The notes beneath the pieces were generated by a model. That model did no database searches. It was given only the letters and a program-made list of their open reading frames with translations, and was not told the DNA's origin. A DNA stretch of 64,000 bases from Roseospira marina (GTDB lineage Bacteria > Pseudomonadota > Alphaproteobacteria > Rhodospirillales > Rhodospirillaceae): positions 1-64,000 of the forward strand of contig NZ_JACIGJ010000017.1 in NCBI RefSeq assembly GCF_014197855.1. Direction: 5' to 3'. Position numbers and translations under genes: made by a program. Below are positions 3,012-13,923 of this stretch, one piece after another; the stretch's first letter is position 1, and every line of letters starts with the position of its first letter.

Positions 3012-3635
3012 ATGAATGCCATTCCTTCGCAGATATCTTACCCCCTCCCCTCTCAAACCAATCTTCCACGAAATACTGCACAGTGGAGGGTCGACAAAAG
3101 TCGAGCCGTATTATTAATTCATGATATGCAACGGTATTTTACACGTTTCTTCGCCCGCCAAATGCGCGCCTCTCTTATTCAGAACATCGCTAAAATTCGA
3201 CAAAAAAGTAACGAGCTTTGAATACCTGTTGCTTACTCCGCTCAACCAGGTGGAATGGACACTCACCAGCGCGGTTTGCTCAGGGATTTCTGGGGCCCAG
3301 GCATGGCCATTAATCCCGAGGATCGCAATATTGTGGACGATCTTAACCCCGGCTCAAATGACTGGCGTCTCACAAAATGGCGATATAGTGCATTTTTTAA
3401 CTCTGATTTGCTCGAAAGAATACGATTAAGTCAGCGAGATCAAATCATATTAACAGGTGTCTATGCGCACGTTGGCGTCATTGCGACAGCAGTCGATGCC
3501 TTTTCAAACGACATACAGCCATTTTTCATAGCCGATGCCACAGCCGACTTTACCGAGCATTTCCATTACACAGCTCTCTCTTATGCAGCTCAACGCTGTG
3601 CGTTCGTCACAACTTCTGAGAGGGTCTTCGTATGA
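3012..3635 (+). pseudogene. phzD: PhzD-like isochorismatase with one in-frame TGA
   Basis: PhzD-type isochorismatases hydrolyse ADIC to trans-2,3-dihydro-3-hydroxyanthranilate (DHHA) and pyruvate. Homology runs the full length of about 207 codons. The N-terminus reads [13 protein letters not shown] with the catalytic Asp. The centre reads [21 protein letters not shown] and [10 protein letters not shown]. The end reads [30 protein letters not shown]. The only break is TGA at 3219-3221, codon 70, where PhzD has Gly (GGA to TGA is one change). The frame on both sides is the same. The stop codon overlaps the start of phzE (ATGA at 3632-3635). The gene is probably inactive unless the UGA is read through. 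Confidence 0.82.
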
Positions 3636-5635
3636 GCATCACAGCGCCGTGTTCAAATACTCCGCCGGAAATGCTCGAAGCTGTGTTCTCCAATACACCG
3701 CCTCCCTACGCGCTTATTCGCCGCCACTCGAGGCACAACGGCGGACAGCTGACCGACTTTCTTATCGGAACCGCTGCCGTATTAAATACACTTGCCGATC
3801 TCGAGCCTACAACGGCCTCCTGGAGATCCCCTTATCCCGAGCATGGTGTGCTCGCTCTGTTACCTTTTCGTCAGATCCGCGAGCGAGGCTACGACTACGT
3901 CGATGACGGCGCAGATCTTATTGCACTCAGCATTACAAAATCGGCCTTAATTTCATCCGACGAACTCATCCGCAGGCTTCCACAAGAACACATCGAGCTT
4001 AGCGGAGAATGGTATGATCTTGACGATAACACATACTCAGAACGAGCTCGCACTATTATTCAGGACGAGATCGGCGGCGGCGCAGGTGCGAATTTCGTCC
4101 TTAAGCGGTCATGTTTGGCTAACATTGCCGGGTTCGACAATCTCAAAGCTTTAACTTTATTCCGCCGTCTCATGCTGCACGAAACCGGAGCCTACTGGAC
4201 GTTCATCGTCCACACGGGCGACCGGGTGTTCGTCGGGGCTTCGCCAGAGCGGCATGTCAGTCTTTCCCGTGGGATTGCCACGATGAACCCAATCAGTGGC
4301 ACGTATCGATATCCCCCGTCCGGGCCAACCCTAGACGGCTTGATTTCGTTTTTAGCCGATAGAAAAGAAACGAACGAACTTTATATGGTCGTTGACGAAG
4401 AACTTAAAATGATGGCCCGCATCTGCGCAACGGGCGGGACCATTTATGGGCCTACTATTAAGTTTATGTCGCGACTTGCCCACACAGAATACCATATTAA
4501 GGGTGAATGCACCCTGCGACCCAGTGAAATACTGAAAGAAACTCTGCTCGCTCCCACAGTAACCGGAAGCCCGCTCGAAAGCGCTTGTCGAATCATCAAA
4601 AAATATGAGCCTGACGGACGACTATATTATAGTGGCATAATCGCCTTAATTGGCCGTGACAGTGATGGAAACCATGAACTAGATTCTTCCATTCTTATAA
4701 GGACGGCCGACATCAGCTCCACAGGCAACCTTCGCGTGAGTGTCGGGGCGACCCTGGTGCGGGATTCGGACCCGCTTTCGGAAGCCGCCGAGACGAAGGC
4801 CAAGGCATCAGGCTTGTTGCTGGCGTTGAAGACCAGCGGAGCGGATCAGGGCGAACTTCCGAACCCACGCAACGGAATCGCCGTGACGTTCAAGGAACTC
4901 GGGCAAGACGCGAGGGTCTGCAGCGCACTCGCCGGACGTAACACAAACCTCTCTCGGTTCTGGCTTGAGGATTGGCGGCACCGCATTCGTCCACAAAAGG
5001 GTCTTCTGGCGCTGAGCGTGCTGATCGTGGACGCTGAAGACACCTTTACGTCGATGATACGCCACCAGTTGGAGTCCCTTGGCCTTTCGGCTGTTGTCCG
5101 ACGGCACGACGAGCCATTCGACCTAAATTTGTTCGATGTCATCGTAATGGGGCCTGGCCCTGGAAACCCTCTGGACGCGAGTGACAATAAAATTGCCGCA
5201 CTCGAACGCGTTATTGACACCGTACTATCGGAGCAACGCCCCTTTATTGCCGTATGCTTGAGCCATCAGGTTCTTTCGCGAAAACTCGGGCTCGATTTGT
5301 CTCGGCGCCACCGGCCTAATCAGGGGAGGCAGTGTCAGATCAGCCTTTTCGGAAAACAGGAATTCGTTGGTTTCTACAATTCATTCAGCGCCACATCCTC
5401 GGTTAGTAATATTACCTCGAAGGACGGCTATAACGTCGATATCTGCCGCGACATTGAAACAAATGAAGTATTTGCGCTACGTTCAGAATTTTTTGTTTCT
5501 TTCCAGTTCCATACCGAGTCAGTGCTTTCCCGCGCGGGCGATCAGATCCTCAGTCACTATCTCCAGGACGTTGTTCGCGCGCGATCCTATCTGCGCACCG
5601 CTCACCCACGCCTAGACTTGGCCGTCGAGCCCTGA
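3632..5635 (+). CDS. phzE: ADIC synthase PhzE (chorismate-utilising, fused glutamine amidotransferase)
   Basis: This protein of 667 residues has the PhzE layout. Residues 1-430 form the chorismate-binding aminating domain ([48 protein letters not shown]). From about 465 there is a class I amidotransferase with VMGPGPGNP, nucleophile Cys542 in [10 protein letters not shown], and His627/Glu629 in [20 protein letters not shown] and VGFYNSF are distinctive for PhzE rather than TrpE/TrpG. It makes 2-amino-2-deoxyisochorismate from chorismate and glutamine. It is translationally coupled to the PhzD-like gene and appears intact, ending in TGA. Base composition is lower in GC than the flanking genome. 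Confidence 0.9.
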
Positions 5636-5663
5636 TGCACCGGAATGCAAAGGATACGCACTT

Positions 5664-7154
5664 ATGGCTAACAGCTCCACGCTCGTAGTGAGCCGCTCCA
5701 CCGAGGACGCGATAAAACGGCGTGCCTGGCTTGGACTTCTAACCATTCTTGGCCCCGTTCTCCTCGTGTCAATGGACGGCTCGATCCTTTTTATTGCGAT
5801 GCCTCGCGTGACATCGGCCATCACGCCTACGGCCGACCAGGCGCTGTGGATTCTTGATATTTACGGCTTCGTGGTCGGTTCCCTGTTGATTGCATTCGGC
5901 AATATCGGTGATCGCTTCGGCCGTCTAAAGCTCATCATGGCCGGCGCTCTCCTATTCGGTGTCGGATCGACGGGAGCCGCCTTTTCGACCAATCCAGAGA
6001 GCCTCATCGCGTGTCGCCTGCTGATGGGGGTGGGTGGGGCGACCCTGCTTCCTTCCGGTTTGGCCATTGTTGCGGCACTCTTCCCTGACTCCCGGAAACG
6101 CGCGCAAGCGATCGGCATATTTGCGGCGACTTTCGCTATGGGTTTCGCGATCGGGCCGGTGCTCGGCGGTTTCCTTTTGCAGATCACCGATTGGTGGGGT
6201 AGCGTTTTCCTAATAAACGCACCAATTGTCATCGGATTTCTGGCCGTGGCGCCCATCACTTTAAAAGAAGTACGATCCAGCCATTACGGGCGGATCGACC
6301 TTCTCAGTCTGTTCCTGTCATTTGTCGGCATTCTTCTGTTTACATATTCTGTAAAACGTGCGGCAGCGTTCGGACTCACCCAGGAGCAACTTCTGTATGG
6401 TGTCGTGGGCATTGCAGCCGTCGTGTGGTTCATTCGACGTCAGCGCGCCATTGAAGACCCTCTGGTCGATCTCCGCCTGTTTGGGGATCGGGTATTTACG
6501 ATCTCCATTCTGGCGGGATTTCTGTCTCTTGTTGTGTGGTCTGCTGCCGGATATATGACCAGCGTCTATCTTCAATCGGTCTTGGGATACACGGTCTTTG
6601 CAACGGCACTGCTAATGCTCCCGGGCGCCGTGGTCATTACCGGAACCTGCATTCTCACGCCGTATATCATCGAGCGCATCGGAAAGAGAGTTGGATTAAT
6701 TGCAGTTTACTTGCTGATTGCGATTGGCGTAGGTCTTCTTTTGTTTACCGATGTTGACACGGGCGTCACATTGGTGGTCGTATCAACAATCATTGCTGGT
6801 GTTGGGTACGGTATATCGTTCAGTCTCGTCGCGGACGTTGCCGTATCGGCCGTCCCGGTCGAGCGAGCGGGCGCAGCCGGCGCGATCGCCGAAACGAGCA
6901 ACGAGCTTGGCAATGCGTTCGGCATCTCCCTTCTCGGGTCAGTCGCTGCGCTCGTCTTCCGCCTGTACGGCCCGGGACTTGCCGGGACCCTAAACGAAAC
7001 CTTAGACACCCCGGACATTGCTGCCGACGGGATTATCCGCGCAAACGAAGCTTTTGTCTTCGGGTTTCATATAGCGATGGGTATTGCCGCCGTGATCATG
7101 TTGTTCGTCGGTCTGATCGCCGTTCGATGGCTCCCCCGAAAACTTCCTGAATAA
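5664..7154 (+). CDS. MFS exporter, DHA2 family (14 transmembrane segments)
   Basis: This inner-membrane proton-driven exporter has 496 residues. Features of the drug:H+ antiporter-2 family include the long first helix with SMDGSILFIAMPRVTSAI, motif A GNIGDRFGRLKLIM after helix 2, and the conserved RLLMGVGGATLLPSGLAI. The helix-5 motif GFAIGPVLGGFLL and a C-terminal half with ERAGAAGAIAETSNELGNAFGISLLG follow. A ribosome site AAAGGAT lies eight bases before the ATG, and the gap to phzE is 28 bases. Its position between phzE and the reductase gene suggests that it exports the product of the cluster, as MFS genes do in other chorismate-derived amine clusters. This role is inferred. Confidence 0.88.
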   Translation: MANSSTLVVSRSTEDAIKRRAWLGLLTILGPVLLVSMDGSILFIAMPRVTSAITPTADQALWILDIYGFVVGSLLIAFGNIGDRFGRLKLIMAGALLFGVGSTGAAFSTNPESLIACRLLMGVGGATLLPSGLAIVAALFPDSRKRAQAIGIFAATFAMGFAIGPVLGGFLLQITDWWGSVFLINAPIVIGFLAVAPITLKEVRSSHYGRIDLLSLFLSFVGILLFTYSVKRAAAFGLTQEQLLYGVVGIAAVVWFIRRQRAIEDPLVDLRLFGDRVFTISILAGFLSLVVWSAAGYMTSVYLQSVLGYTVFATALLMLPGAVVITGTCILTPYIIERIGKRVGLIAVYLLIAIGVGLLLFTDVDTGVTLVVVSTIIAGVGYGISFSLVADVAVSAVPVERAGAAGAIAETSNELGNAFGISLLGSVAALVFRLYGPGLAGTLNETLDTPDIAADGIIRANEAFVFGFHIAMGIAAVIMLFVGLIAVRWLPRKLPE

Positions 7155-7187
7155 ATCTCGATCGACGACCTGTACCATCAAGGACTT

Positions 7188-10100
7188 TTGGTGCCACCCC
7201 TAGGCAGGATGACGTTAATGCGTCTCGCTCGAACAGTCGAAGAGGTTATGTCCAAGTTTGCGGACCGCCCGGCGATCGCAGAGCGGCGCACACGCCTCGT
7301 TCGCGATCCCGTAACGTCGCGAATGGCGCTCGATTACGAGCACTCGTACACCGCGACGACATATCGGGAGCTCTGGAGGCGAGCGAACATCATCGCTGCG
7401 GAGTTCGCACAAAATGAAGACCATCCGGTGCACGCTAGAGACAAAGTCGCCTTCCTGGCTTTTGCCAGCGGCGACTATGCGGCCCTTGATCTGGCCTGTA
7501 TCCGCTTGGGGGCGGTCACGATCCCACTTCAAACAACGTCATCTGATGCGGAACTCGCTGCCATTCTGGCCGAAACGGAGCCGGTGATCCTGGCGGTGAG
7601 CCCAGAGTATCTTGAACGAGCGACGCCCCTGGCGCTTGGGGCACCGTCGGTCCGGCGCATGGTGCTGTTCGATTTCCACTCTCAAGTGGATGATCACCGC
7701 GAGATGGTCGAGGCCACCAGAGATGTTCTCGATAGAAACGCAGGCCCGTCGTTAACTTCGCTCGTGGACGCTCTGGAAAGGGGAGCCGGTTTGGCGGAAG
7801 CGGACTGGCCTTCGGAAGACGAAACGCACGACCCCCTCGCGATGCTAATCTACACTTTCGGCAGCACCGGCTCTCCAAAGGGAGCGATGTACATCGAAAG
7901 TCTAGCGGCCGGAATGTGAGGGGGATCATGGTCGCAGATCTTTTCTGATGAGCGCGCCATCAGTATTCACTACCAGCCGATGAGCCATGTCGCGGGACAC
8001 TCCTCCCTGAAGAACACCTTGGCCCGAGGAGGGACGTGCTATTTCACGGCGCGCAGCAATCTATCGAGTCTTTTAGAGGATATGCGCTTAGCAAAACCGA
8101 CGGAATTATCTCTGGTCCCGCGCGTCTGTGAGATGCTCTATCAGCGATACCATAGCGAGCTTGCCAAGCGACGTCCTTTCCTGGTTGGCAACGAAAGCAC
8201 ACTTCGAGCGGACATTCTAAGCGAACTGCGAACGGACGTTCTTGGGGGCCGCGTGCGATGGGCGAGTTGCAGTTCGGCCCCACTTTCGGCAAAGCTCAAG
8301 GAATTCACTGAAGACCTTCTTGGCACTGAACTTCATAACGTCTACGGGTCCACCGAGGCTGGCGCAATATGGATTGATAACAAATTGTTAAAGCCGCCCG
8401 TCCTCGAGTATACGCTTATTGATGTCCCAGAACTCGGCTATCACAAAACGGATAAACCATACCCGCGAGGTGAATTGCTTCTTAAGACCGCGTCCATCAT
8501 ACCCGGCTATTACAAAAGGCCCGACCTATCAGAGATTTTGTGTGACTCCGACGGGTTTTATCGAACTGGGGACATCGTCACTGAAACCGGTGAGAACGAA
8601 TTACACTTTATAGATCGACGCAAGAACGTGATAAAACTTTCTCAGGGCGAGTTCGTTGCAACGGCTAAACTGGAAACTCTCTTCGCAGCGAGCCCGCTTA
8701 TCCGCCAAATCTTCATTTACGCACGAAGCGAGTGGTCGAGCCTATTGGCTGTGATCGTGCCGGCAGCGCATATCCGCGATCAATTCGTCGATATGGAACA
8801 TGAGCTCAAACGCCTTATTTCCGAATCCTTTCGGGATATAAAGAAAAAAGAACAACTCAAACCCTACGAAGTCCCACGAGACTTCATAATCGAGTGGGAA
8901 TTTTTTAGTCAGAATAACGGTCTATTATCGGATCACGGCAAGCCGATGTGGCCCAAGCTTCGACAGCGCTACACCACCGAGCTTGACCGACTGTATGAAG
9001 CACTCGCCTCCCGCGAGATCGAAAAGATGCAGGGCATTTACCATAATCGAAACGGGCAAACCGTGATGGAAACCGTCAAAATGGCGGTTCGAACTATTAT
9101 CGGCAGTTCCGACATTGATGTGAAGCCGTCCGACCAATTCCGGGATCTCGGTGGCGATTCATTGTCGGCCGTCCAGCTATCGACCGTGCTTGAGGACGTA
9201 TTCGACACGCGGATACCGGTCGATATGATCATTAGTCGGGGATCAGATGTCCAGAGCCTTGCTGATTACATCGAACACAAACAGGGTGCCGTGATTGACC
9301 GTCCCACGGTAGCATCCATTCATGGTGTGGGAGCAACCGCCTTCCACGCAAGCCAATTGAAGCTCGACAAATTCGTTAGCCCGAACCTATTGGCGCAAGC
9401 CAGCACCCTACCTCGCCCAGGCGGGGCGTCGCGTACCGTGCTCCTCACAGGCGCTAGCGGCTTTCTTGGCCGTTTCCTCTGTCTCGCACTTCTTGCAGAT
9501 CTCGAAGAGTGTGGTGGAAAGCTTGTTTGCATTGTTCGTGGAAAAGACAACGCCTCCGCATACGAGCGGCTTGCCGGCGTGTTTGGGCAGCATGATCCGA
9601 AGTTGGATCATGAGTTTCGTAATCTGTCTGCCCGGCGTCTGGAGGTTATAGCAGGGGACATCGCACTTCCGCAGTTTGGTCTCGATCATGATACGTGGGA
9701 GCGATTGTCCGGCGAGGTGGATGCGATCGTCCACGCTGGCGCTCTGGTCAATCATGTTTTTTCTTACAGCCAGATTTTCGAGGCAAACGTGCTCGGCACG
9801 ACGGAATTAATCAAGCTGGCGTTGACCGCGCGTCTGAAGGAGTTTGTCTTCATATCAAGCATTGCGGTGGCGAGCCCGACCGAAAGCAGGAACGCTCTCG
9901 ATGAGGATAGCGACATCCGCGTGTCTCTTCCGAGCATAGCCATTGATGGCAATTACGCAACTGGCTATGCGACGAGCAAATGGGCCGGCGAGATATTGCT
10001 GCGGGAGGCAAATGAAAAATACAGCCTCCCCGTGACAGTATTCAGATCAAGTATGATTCTTGCTCACCGCCGGTATATTGGTCAGCTTAATGTCCCGGAC

Positions 10101-10682
10101 GCATTTACGCGCTTGCTCGTCAGCATCATTCTTACGAGACTAGCGCCCGTGAGCTTTTATAACACGAATGCTATAATGTCGTGTTTGACAGCACATTACG
10201 ACGGGCTGCCCGTAGATTCCACAGCGGATGCCATCATCACTCTCGGGCTTGGCCATCACGAAGGCTATCGTACCTATAATCTTGTCAATCCACACGACGA
10301 CGGCATTTCGCTTGATACGGTGGTCGACTGGCTGGACGAATTTGGGTATCGGATCCGGCGGGTCCGCGATTATGTGGCGTGGCGTGACGAATTCGAGGGG
10401 GCTCTACAGTCACTGCCAGAGAAGGATCAAAAAAGTTCGACACTCCCGTTGTTGCATGCATACGAAAGACCGCTGACCCCGATATCCGGGTCGTTGATCT
10501 CGGCAACGCGATTCGAGCAGGCCGTCCAAAGCGCTGGCATTCGCTTGGAGTGCATTCCGCACATTTCACCGTCATTAATTGCCAAATATGCCCGTGATCT
10601 CGAAACGCTTGGCCTCATACCGCCACACGAAAAAAGAGATTCGCGACTGGCATCCTGCGAAGCTGAGCGTATGCATATGTGA
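7188..10682 (+). pseudogene. Carboxylic acid reductase (A-T-R) with one in-frame TGA
   Basis: The CAR family adenylates an acid, loads it on a phosphopantetheine arm and reduces it with NADPH to the aldehyde. Read across one stop, the frame gives 1164 residues, the usual CAR length. Residues 1-560 are the adenylation domain (RPAIAERRTRLVRDP, LIYTFGSTGSPKGAMY at 220-235, PMSHVAGHSSL, FYRTGDIV). The carrier domain has LGGDSLSAVQ (Ser658). The reductase starts at TVLLTGASGFLGRFL, near 750. The stop is TGA at 7917-7919, codon 244, exactly where CARs carry Trp (AATMW). A GTG at 7191 or ATG at 7209 are alternative starts. In YTFGSTG, a normally small Ser is Phe. Confidence 0.85.
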
Positions 10683-10793: not shown

Positions 10794-12097
10794 CGTCCAG
10801 GATCTTTCGCACATTTGGTCACGCGACGGCTCCGGATGATGAGGCCCGCATCGCGTGGAGCGGCGCCATATTCATGTAGCGCCGGGCCGACCACTGCGAT
10901 CCGGCGATGTGCCGCAGCCGGGCCGCAGCCAGGTTGAGGCAGCTCTGGCCATCGGGGAAGGCGCCCACCACCCGGGTGCGGCGGCGGATCTCCTTCATGA
11001 TCCGTTCCAGCGGGTTGTTGGTCCGGATCTTGGACCAGTGGACATCCGGGAAGGCGTAGTAGGTCAGCGTCTCACCGATGTGCTCCGCCACCAACTCCGC
11101 CGCTCGGGTCAGCTTCTGACGGCGCAGCTCCGCTTCGACAGCATCGGCCTTCTCCTGGGCCGCCTCCCGGTTTTCCTGGGCATGGATCGCCTTCAGCATG
11201 TGGGCGATCTCGCGCACCTTCGTGGCCGGCACGTGGCTGAAGACATTGCGATAGAAGTGCACCATGCACCGTTGCCACTGGGCGTCCGGCAGGAAGTCCG
11301 CCACGCTCTCCACCAACCCCCGGCAGGCATCCGAGATGATCAGCTGAACGCCCGACAGGCCGCGGTCGACGAGGTGGCGCAGGAAGGCGCTCCAACCGGA
11401 TTTGTCCTCCTTGGCGCCCTCCCAGATGCCCAGAATCTCCCGGTACCCCTCGGCATTCACTGCGCTGGCCATCAGCAGCGAGACGTTGCGAACCTCCCTG
11501 GCCCAGGTCCGCTTCATCACGATCCCATCCAGATACAGGTACGGATGCTCGCCCTCAATCGGCCGGTGACGCCAGTCCTCGATCTTCGCGTAGATCTTCT
11601 TGTTCAGACTGGACACTGTCGACGGCGAGACCCGGGTGCCCCACAGCGCTTCGGTGATGTCTTCCACCCGCCGAACCGAGACGCCGGCCAGGTACATCTC
11701 GATCAAGGCTTCTTCCACCGAGCTTTCCCGGCGCCGGTAGCGCTCGACGATCGCCGTCTCGAACGTCTGGCGCCGCAGCTTCGGCACCTTCAGCGTCACC
11801 TCGCCGGCCTTCGTGTGAAGCGCCCGTTCATAGCTGCCCGCCCGCGTGTCCCGCCGGCCCTCCGACCGCTCGTAGCGCGCTGCCCCGCACAGGCGATCCG
11901 CCTCCGCGTCCAGCACCGCATTCAAGGCCTCTTCCACCGTACCGCGGACCCTCTCGCCCAGATGGTCGCGGTTCCGCCCCTCATCGATCTGGATCACCTG
12001 GCCCATCGGCGTCGCGCCCTTCTGATCGTCCATTCCAAGCTCCTTCCGTCAGGATAGAAGGAGCCGCCCAATCCGAAAGTGCGAAATAAACCGTACG
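10794..12097 (-). mobile_element. IS256-family insertion sequence
   Basis: The left end CGTCCAGGATCTTTCGCAC (10794-10812) and the right end read inward, CGTACGGTTTATTTCGCAC (12079-12097), share the core TTTCGCAC and further matches. Exact element borders are estimates. No 8-9 bp target duplication was found, so the flanks may have been rearranged after insertion. The right side abuts a group II intron fragment. The left end plus the last transposase codons recur at 51165-51230. Confidence 0.7.
10819..12033 (-). CDS. IS256-family (mutator-like) transposase
   Basis: The full-length transposase has 404 residues. Landmarks are the N-terminal LKVPKLRRQTFETAIVERYRRRE, the region YLAGVSVRRVEDITEALWG, and the DDE core. 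The core contains YLYLDGIVMKRTW (first Asp), GVQLIISDACRGL (second Asp) with QRCMVHFYRNVFSHVP just after it, and KIRTNNPLERIMKEIRRRTRVVGAFP carrying the catalytic Glu. No internal stop is present, so it could be active. It lies between the reductase gene and the TetR gene of the island and may have separated the two. Confidence 0.92.
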   Translation of the reverse strand: MDDQKGATPMGQVIQIDEGRNRDHLGERVRGTVEEALNAVLDAEADRLCGAARYERSEGRRDTRAGSYERALHTKAGEVTLKVPKLRRQTFETAIVERYRRRESSVEEALIEMYLAGVSVRRVEDITEALWGTRVSPSTVSSLNKKIYAKIEDWRHRPIEGEHPYLYLDGIVMKRTWAREVRNVSLLMASAVNAEGYREILGIWEGAKEDKSGWSAFLRHLVDRGLSGVQLIISDACRGLVESVADFLPDAQWQRCMVHFYRNVFSHVPATKVREIAHMLKAIHAQENREAAQEKADAVEAELRRQKLTRAAELVAEHIGETLTYYAFPDVHWSKIRTNNPLERIMKEIRRRTRVVGAFPDGQSCLNLAAARLRHIAGSQWSARRYMNMAPLHAMRASSSGAVA

Positions 12098-12331
12098 TTA
12101 TCGAAGTTTCGAGGGATAAAATCGACCGTAGTAGCCCACCCAGCCCATAAGGACAGGGCGGACCCATGCGGCGATTTCCGCCAGATCAAGATCATTCCTG
12201 CGATGCAATCGCCAGCGGCGCACGCTGAGCCGCATCCTCTTGGCCGCCTTTGGACTGACCGCGGGGATGAATGCGACGAAGCGCCCGCCGTGGCGGTTGT
12301 GCGCCAATCTGGGCCGGAACGTGTAGCCTAG
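12098..12331 (-). pseudogene. Group II intron reverse transcriptase/maturase, C-terminal fragment
   Basis: The fragment encodes LGYTFRPRLAHNRHGGRFV, FIPAVSPKAAKRMR, and WVRPVLMGWVGYYGRFYPS, the GIIM maturase domain of group II intron proteins. The upstream polymerase part is cut at CTAG (12329-12332), where the truncated IS5 copy is inserted with its TA target at 12329-12330. The downstream end is lost at the IS256 border. No recognisable intron ribozyme domain V was seen in the short flank. Confidence 0.72.
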
Positions 12332-12562
12332 GGCGTAAACTCGTAAATCGGCTTGGCGCTTTCGGCCTGGCATGATTCAAGGCTTCCGAACGAGGGAGCC
12401 TTGAATGACGCGCCGACGCTCAGAACTCACCGACCACGAATGGTCAATTATCCAGCCGTTGCTTCCCAACAAACCGCGCGGCGTTCCTCGTGTCGATGAT
12501 CGCCGGGTGCTGAACGGCATCCTCTGGCGGTTTCGGACGGGGTCCCCCTGGGAGGAGATCCC
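12331..12562 (+). mobile_element. Truncated second copy of the 1531-2379 IS5 element
   Basis: Starting with GGGCGTAAACTCGTAAATCG, it matches the left end of the first copy almost base for base through the first 50 codons of the transposase (12405-12554). Divergence begins just after GAGATCCC near 12562. Orientation is opposite to the first copy, so both left ends face the biosynthetic cluster. The right terminal repeat is absent. Confidence 0.8.
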
Positions 12563-13206: not shown

Positions 13207-13923
13207 GTGAAAGAAACCGGCGAGCTTGGCCGTAGAGAGAGAAAAAAAGCAGAGCTGAGGTGCGCCCTCATCGAAGCCGCATTTGCCTTATTTGCAGAAA
13301 GAGGTTTTGATGAAACTCGCGTTGAGGACATAACAGAGAAAGTTGATGTATCATCAAGAACTTTTTTTCGTTATTTCTCCTCAAAAGAGGAGGTTGTGCT
13401 AGAATATTACTCAGTAGAGTATGATGAGATAATCTCTGCTTTAAAGGAGAGGCCCCGCCATGAACACATTATGACGGCTCTCAGGCGCGCAATCGTCAGC
13501 GTTACGAGGGGTTGTGAGGAGGGGTTCTACGGGGTCGATGGCGATCGATTCCGTACACTTCGTTCTCTTATCCGCACTCATCCCATCATTCGCGCCAAAT
13601 GTCTTGAGCAGTCCGATTCTCGAAAATGCCAACTGATTTCTGTTATAGCCCAACGCCTCGAAATCGACGCTTCTTCTGACCTGAGGCCACTATTGTTAGC
13701 CGGGGTTTTTGAATTTGCATCAAGCGCGGCATATGATGTCTGGCGGGAACCACAGTCGCGCGGGATTCCTTATTTCAAAATTCTAGACAACGTATTTGAT
13801 ACAATTGAGCGTGAGCTTGGATCGGCGGACGGAAACGTGGAATCCTTGGACGAGGCAACGGACGCTCGTCGTCGCGACGCCGGACGACACCGACGATCTC
13901 GCGGTCGTCCGTCCGTCCAGTGA
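13207..13923 (+). CDS. TetR-family transcriptional regulator
   Basis: This DNA-binding repressor has 238 residues. Residues 12-60 form the TetR helix-turn-helix domain ([25 protein letters not shown], then [28 protein letters not shown]), and a C-terminal ligand domain follows. The GTG start at 13207 is chosen because AAAGGAG lies seven bases upstream; an ATG at 13201 reads only two codons. Base composition is low-GC like the phz-like cluster and unlike the genes after 14 kb. It may be the original local regulator of the cluster and its exporter, later separated from it by insertions. That link is inference. Confidence 0.85.

Follow-up and report, generated by a model that had tools for sequence, protein, structure and literature searches.

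A damaged PhzD-PhzE-carboxylic acid reductase island in Roseospira marina and a recurring cluster type in Pseudonocardiaceae

What does a carboxylic acid reductase (CAR) do next to genes for a phenazine precursor in an alphaproteobacterium? The question is raised by an island in a 64,000-nucleotide stretch of Roseospira marina DNA (contig NZ_JACIGJ010000017.1, positions 1 to 64,000, hereinafter the window). There, a phzD-like frame, phzE, a gene for an exporter of the major facilitator superfamily (MFS) and the CAR gene follow one another on the plus strand. Probably (we put it at roughly 0.6), the island came in by horizontal transfer and is a decaying copy of an uncharacterised cluster of Pseudonocardiaceae type, whose CAR would reduce trans-2,3-dihydro-3-hydroxyanthranilate (DHHA) or 3-hydroxyanthranilate to an amino-aldehyde. 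It points to a cluster family that appears to start from DHHA, the precursor of phenazines, and to finish with an aldehyde-forming reductase.

The phzD-like gene (3012-3635), a predicted 2-amino-2-deoxyisochorismate (ADIC) hydrolase gene, is broken by a single in-frame TGA at 3219-3221. Its C-terminal piece matches the PhzD structures 3r77 (E = 4.3e-59) and 1nf9 (E = 3e-58) in PDB. The phzE gene (3632-5635; ADIC synthase) is an open frame of 667 aa with the Pfam domains PF00425 (Chorismate_bind) and PF00117 (GATase), and its product matches PDB entry 3r74 (E = 4.7e-171). The exporter gene (5664-7154), also an open frame, encodes a DHA2-type MFS protein (PF07690), whose NCBIfam matches of LfrA, QepA and EmrB type all lie under the cut-offs. 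The CAR frame is broken by a single in-frame TGA at 7917-7919, leaving no intact CAR open reading frame. The upstream piece (7188-7919) contains the N-terminal part of the adenylation domain (NF041592, carboxyl_red, 222 bits, profile positions 32-257). The downstream piece (7980-10682), in the same frame and on the plus strand like all of these genes, contains the remaining adenylation, carrier and reductase domains (1200 bits, profile positions 283-1160). Over both pieces the adenylation-carrier-reductase (A-PCP-R) architecture is present (Pfam AMP-binding, PP-binding and NAD_binding_4; profile length 1160), and the larger piece matches the solved CARs 5msc (E = 1.1e-275) and 5msp. Judged by these profile and structure matches, the family assignments of PhzE, the PhzD piece and the CAR pieces are firm. 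The preliminary description of this DNA had listed four genes and a single CAR protein, implying a working copy. All four components are present, but the phzD-like and CAR frames carry stops and CAR is split into two frames; only phzE and the exporter gene are open.

PhzD, PhzE and CAR recur together in other genomes. Using PhzE as query in the order of Umezawaea, we found matches at 1e-130 in 97 of 397 genomes and fetched ~20 kb around 40 of them. PhzD is present at 28 of the 40 loci, with a CAR in addition at just one of these, L077, which has the top-ranking PhzE. A CAR search in the family of L077, which includes Lentzea and Umezawaea genomes, gave matches in 50 of 297 genomes at 1e-200, and we read the neighbourhoods of 44 of the 59 matches listed, including L077 and L022-L024. 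Six contain PhzD and PhzE, seven contain a PabAB-type gene, and 31 contain neither. The six loci (L077, L148, L149, L151/L198, L156/L192 and L161/L195) belong to six Pseudonocardiaceae genomes. On the ~20-kb basis L151 (genome G1384) was unlinked, and L156 and L161 had PhzE at the edge of the stretch. Extended to 55-59 kb each, none of the six loci has a match to PhzF, PhzB or PhzG. For the 31 unlinked CARs, the neighbourhood covered is ~20 kb, or shorter where a contig ends; for the 11 of them extended to the matching span or to the contig end (and one more on one side), no PhzE, PabAB, PhzD or DAHP (3-deoxy-D-arabino-heptulosonate 7-phosphate) synthase match was found. The joining of PhzD and PhzE to CAR, as proposed in the preliminary description, is a real and recurring cluster type.

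The related clusters are richer than the island. A DAHP synthase match is present in all six loci (class II by Pfam in L148), and five of them have genes for a methyltransferase and MetK, an S-adenosylmethionine (SAM) synthetase, adjoining CAR, plus a MarR regulator. L148 is the simplest: the genes for DAHP synthase, PhzD, PhzE and CAR adjoin one another, followed by a regulator gene on the other strand (plus strand; MmyB-like, Pfam MLTR_LBD) and then an MFS gene. Relatives of the cluster without stops exist among Pseudonocardiaceae. The preliminary description had suggested looking for an intact relative with an added dehydrogenase, but near the six clusters no gene is recognisable as one for a DHHA dehydrogenase. 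In the genome of L148 (G1249), genes for AMP-binding, acyl-CoA dehydrogenase and carrier proteins (L188, 12975-19398) begin ~5 kb past the MFS gene, and they may or may not belong to the cluster.

The phylogeny of CAR separates the linked enzymes from the unlinked ones. The tree has 46 rows, namely the 44 CARs with read neighbourhoods, the CAR of a Streptomyces plasmid (L036) and the window CAR. The window CAR falls in a clade of 14 rows (SH-aLRT 99.9) together with the six PhzD/PhzE-linked and the seven PabAB-type-linked CARs. All 13 other members of the clade lie near chorismate-to-aminobenzoate genes, versus none of the 31 other CARs (~20 kb). Judged by gene neighbourhood, this clade of CARs is linked to the supply of aminobenzoates. 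To our knowledge, the natural substrates of most CARs have not been established; the neighbours of this clade suggest chorismate-derived aminobenzoates, and the prediction can be tested directly in the related actinobacterial clusters. The substrate class named in the preliminary description, acids of DHHA or 3-hydroxyanthranilate type, is supported by this phylogeny, but the substrate itself is one that we infer.

The same clade allows another substrate. Anthranilate, 4-aminobenzoate or some other acid derived from chorismate may be what the CAR reduces, with PhzD and PhzE serving another branch, as PabAB-type genes accompany seven of its 13 relatives in the clade. According to the available part of one source, the PhzE homologue Lim6 makes a little anthranilate (PMC5958127), and CAR adenylation domains are described as broad in the section covered of another (PMC8658869). 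However, all six clusters keep PhzD besides PhzE, and neither anthranilate nor 4-aminobenzoate would need PhzD. We consider this alternative unlikely.

The seven PabAB-type CAR clusters (L022, L023, L024, L152, L155, L157 and L179) form a second recurring CAR cluster type. A PabAB-type gene, DAHP synthase, P450 and CAR are present in all seven, and a GMC oxidoreductase in six. By Pfam, L023 contains a carbamoyltransferase, and L022 contains Chorismate_bind, GATase and Anth_synt_I_N. The more distant CAR on the plasmid of Streptomyces sp. Mut1 (L036) adjoins an annotated 2-amino-3,7-dideoxy-D-threo-hept-6-ulosonate synthase and a 3-dehydroquinate synthase II. In the portion seen of the ahbamycin paper, an aldolase and dehydroquinate-synthase-II pair is tied to 3-amino-4-hydroxybenzoate (3,4-AHBA), and the L036 neighbours resemble it (PMC10179220). 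Judged by its annotation, the L036 gene set looks as if it made 3-amino-4-hydroxybenzaldehyde.

In a PhzE tree of 58 rows, from which short duplicate loci and partial matches were omitted, the six CAR-linked PhzEs form one clade. The six loci thus represent one evolutionary event, not six. A single clade of the window PhzE and the six CAR-linked PhzEs is compatible with the data in the approximately unbiased (AU) test (p-AU 0.648), with a likelihood higher than that of the free search. An eight-member clade of PhzE homologues (support 100; L106, L107, L109-L113 and L115) has no PhzD in the fetched 20 kb.

The fate of DHHA differs between loci with and without CAR. Among the 27 PhzD- and PhzE-containing loci without CAR, 18 have a relative of DHHA dehydrogenase and six have PhzF, 24 in total (~20 kb). 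The six CAR loci, over their 55-59 kb, have no PhzF and no recognisable DHHA dehydrogenase nearby, the only candidate being a 27%-identical short-chain dehydrogenase/reductase (SDR) far off. The 27 come from the 40 PhzE loci, and the six include five loci added from the CAR search. For 24 of 27 versus none of six, the Fisher test gives 7.6e-5, which overstates the evidence because the six loci are one clade. With neither dehydrogenase nor PhzF at these loci, the pattern suggests that CAR consumes DHHA or that 3-hydroxyanthranilate comes from an enzyme coded elsewhere. Supply of a dehydrogenase in trans is possible, because a dehydrogenase accompanies PhzE at two more loci (L081 and L088) in the genome of L077, and the R. 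marina genome beyond the window has 25 SDR matches (best 39% identity, E = 2.4e-33). In the window, a DHHA oxidoreductase of Lim4/DhbX type had no match at 1e-3.

Together, the genes suggest the following route. A DAHP synthase, which is not in the window, would raise chorismate. From their families, PhzE is predicted to convert chorismate and glutamine to ADIC, and PhzD to remove pyruvate from ADIC to give DHHA. CAR would then adenylate DHHA at its carboxylate (or 3-hydroxyanthranilate, should another enzyme first oxidise DHHA), load the acyl group on its carrier domain and release a free amino-aldehyde by NADPH reduction. The R. marina genome has one candidate phosphopantetheinyl transferase (PF01648, 55.5 bits, above cut-off; open frame of 300 codons). 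The product could then be methylated, as suggested by the methyltransferase and SAM synthetase next to CAR in five of the six related clusters, and the MFS pump would export it. A more tentative version makes CAR itself the consumer of DHHA, a third fate of this intermediate. In this version, DHHA might be reduced directly to 6-amino-5-hydroxycyclohexa-1,3-diene-1-carbaldehyde and then methylated, exported or aromatised, possibly to 2-aminobenzaldehyde by water loss or to 2-amino-3-hydroxybenzaldehyde by oxidation. In the literature searched, we found no description of such a route to reactive aminobenzaldehydes, no paper on 2-amino-3-hydroxybenzaldehyde, and no paper pairing 'carboxylic acid reductase' with 'phzE'. 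A broader search likewise gave no described PhzD-PhzE-CAR cluster among the matches listed.

Parts of the proposed route resemble known systems. Clusters with a chorismate/DHHA pathway include those for limazepine (lim3-6), tilivalline, paulomycins, calcimycin and caboxamycin, as given in the accessible part of PMC5958127. They share with the CAR clusters homologues of DAHP synthase, PhzD and PhzE giving DHHA outside phenazine biosynthesis, and PhzE and PhzD homologues are likewise together in the window, with the PhzD frame interrupted. Unlike the CAR clusters, which have a free-standing CAR and no recognisable dehydrogenase nearby, the limazepine and tilivalline clusters have their own DHHA oxidoreductase (Lim4/DhbX) and nonribosomal peptide synthetase assembly. 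According to the portion seen of PMC10179220, 3,4-AHBA is the substrate of a carboxylic acid reductase, GriC/GriD, in grixazone biosynthesis. There too, an aminohydroxybenzoate is activated and reduced to an aminohydroxybenzaldehyde, but 3,4-AHBA comes from GriI/GriH, not from chorismate, and two proteins do the work of one A-PCP-R protein. In the section covered of PMC8658869, Lentzea sp. GA3-008 has a CAR beside DAHP synthase, a near identical cluster occurs in Allokutzneria albata, and a link to pyrazines is left untested. As in the related clusters, these are Pseudonocardiaceae in which a CAR neighbours a second DAHP synthase gene, and that CAR, likened here by description and not by sequence, possibly belongs to the 14-member clade. 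Unlike in the related clusters, no PhzD or PhzE is named in that section, which weighs amino-acid-derived pyrazines.

The preliminary description had also held that the rest of the phenazine pathway is missing. That is the case for the window, where the PhzF, PhzG and PhzB encoded elsewhere in this genome, used as tblastn queries, matched nothing at 1e-3 in all 64 kb, but not for the genome. On contig C26 (L020, 7541-13109, minus strand), two PhzA/B-family genes, phzD, phzE, phzF and phzG run in one direction, each as a single open frame; this PhzG is above the NCBIfam equivalog cut-off and this PhzF above the subfamily cut-off. A phenazine-free genome is therefore ruled out by the C26 operon. 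The island could then be a fragment for phenazine tailoring, with CAR reducing a phenazine carboxylate from the C26 operon, e.g. phenazine-1,6-dicarboxylate (PDC), to a formyl- or hydroxymethyl-phenazine. The window PhzE falls beside the C26 PhzE in one tree, and carboxylate-activating genes beside phenazine genes exist: Burkholderia ubonensis has a pair of AMP-binding and aldehyde-dehydrogenase-family proteins soon past PhzE, and a plasmid phenazine cluster of Pantoea agglomerans (L203) has such proteins after a PhzG-like gene. The Pantoea cluster is presumably of the griseoluteic-acid/ehp type, in which EhpF and the reductase following it reportedly carry out a reduction of this kind en route to griseoluteic acid. 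It resembles the island in having PhzD and PhzE beside carboxylate-activating enzymes and an MFS exporter. It differs in having PhzA/B, PhzF and PhzG-like genes and separate AMP-binding and aldehyde-dehydrogenase-family proteins instead of a CAR. EhpF is known here through a citing paper, seen in part (PMC3175449). Given that CAR is an enzyme of a different type from such pairs, that PhzF, PhzB and PhzG are all unmatched over 55-59 kb at the six PhzD-PhzE-CAR loci, that the CAR clade is tied to aminobenzoate genes, and that a second PhzD/PhzE would be redundant, we find phenazine tailoring improbable.

On their plasmids, the Pantoea (L203) and B. ubonensis (L035) clusters, with PhzD and PhzE followed by AMP-binding and aldehyde-dehydrogenase-family proteins, represent another enzyme solution. 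Near the C26 phenazine core, MarR, HlyD-like and EmrB-like genes were recognised by eye. A nitric-oxide-reductase-like protein on C26, also named by eye, is ~80% identical to those on Roseibium and Ruegeria plasmids.

The preferred reading, a decaying import of a Pseudonocardiaceae-type cluster, is further supported by the borders and composition of the island. At its left border lies an IS5-family insertion sequence (IS) at about 1529-2381 on the minus strand, with a transposase gene at 1541-2305 (NCBIfam transpos_IS5_3, 277.9 bits) and end repeats agreeing at 14 of 16 bases. Just downstream of CAR is an IS256-family transposase gene (10819-12033, minus strand; NF033543, 354.7 bits). Then, at 12329-12562 on the plus strand, comes a 234-bp stretch that repeats, in inverted orientation, part of the left element at its inner end (98.7% identical to positions 2148-2381 of the opposite strand). 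The segment 2382-12328 is thus flanked on both sides by the same IS end, and by its sequence resembles a worn composite element. The G+C content is 53-57% in 2-10 kb, versus 59-73% in most other 2-kb steps of the window. Close matches to the window PhzE are found at 1e-60 in one of 73 genomes of the family, at 1e-80 in eight of 385 genomes of the class and at 1e-110 in four of 398 genomes of the phylum, the R. marina genome being that one and being included in the others. For the window CAR, a sample of 398 genomes of the phylum gave a match at 1e-100 in one, which is likewise its own. Because of the IS borders, the G+C content and the near-absence of PhzE and CAR from the genomes of relatives, horizontal acquisition of the island is likely. 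The plasmid route was rejected: the CAR has matches in 371 plasmid records, always below 60% identity at the best place, and no PhzE annotation lies near the CAR match in the three records whose surroundings were examined.

Insertion sequences might instead have brought a phzDE fragment, a pump gene and an unrelated CAR side by side by chance, without any shared pathway. This reading would fit the IS elements on both sides (IS256 adjoining CAR), an exporter nearest to rhizobial plasmid pumps, a gene order differing from that of the six relatives and two broken genes, but we give it little credence, as the four genes are consecutive on one strand, the CAR groups with the CARs of the 14-member clade, apart from the 31 unlinked CARs, and PhzD, PhzE and CAR stand together in six other genomes, contrary to the chance co-occurrence that the preliminary description had allowed for.

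Conserved positions point to uneven decay. In the C-terminal part of the window CAR, 12 of 148 otherwise invariant columns are changed, the highest of the 46 rows (next, 7 of 143), and in the N-terminal part four of 28 near-invariant columns are changed. The PhzD pieces have no change in the near-invariant columns covered (42 other sequences), and the window PhzE has one in 90 invariant columns, counted over 43 of the 58 rows of the PhzE tree. Judged by these counts, CAR may have been under relaxed selection for longer than PhzD and PhzE. Taken alone, the window copy is unremarkable, a damaged and probably imported gene set. It shows a set of actinobacterial type in an alphaproteobacterium, where it is decaying.

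Several points weigh against a decaying import of this cluster type. First, the match in gene content is incomplete. DAHP synthase is not matched at 1e-3 in the whole window, and the methyltransferase and MetK, also searched for there, gave no match. PhzD, PhzE and CAR co-occur in six genomes, but the window order that the preliminary description asked after, with the MFS gene between phzE and CAR, is found in none of the six; in five of them, several kb and other genes separate PhzE from CAR, and the PhzE of L151/L198 was found only on extending the stretch, a looser co-location than in L148. Second, the trees do not single out one placement. Grouping the window CAR with the PhzD/PhzE-linked CARs is not rejected (p-AU 0.435), and grouping it with the PabAB type is likewise not rejected (p-AU 0.275), so the trees were dropped as a means to decide between the two kinships. 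The window CAR has a long branch (0.78) and an unusual composition, which makes its placement inside the clade unsure, and the free PhzE tree places the window PhzE beside the C26 phenazine PhzE (support 92). Third, the signs of decay have other possible sources. An assembly error could lie behind either stop or both, and the window CAR is also the most divergent of the 46 rows, so its changed columns may partly reflect plain divergence. Fourth, the window exporter is 60% identical to the MFS protein near the CAR of L148 but 67% identical to MFS proteins of Sinorhizobium plasmids; judged by this likeness to rhizobial-plasmid pumps it may be a local addition, and we dropped it as proof of shared descent with the L148 cluster. 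Finally, we know of no chemistry for any member of the cluster family.

Beyond the right border, at 13207-13923, is a gene for a TetR-family regulator with ~52% G+C, beside a transposase-like remnant (read by eye). This regulator may have come with the island.

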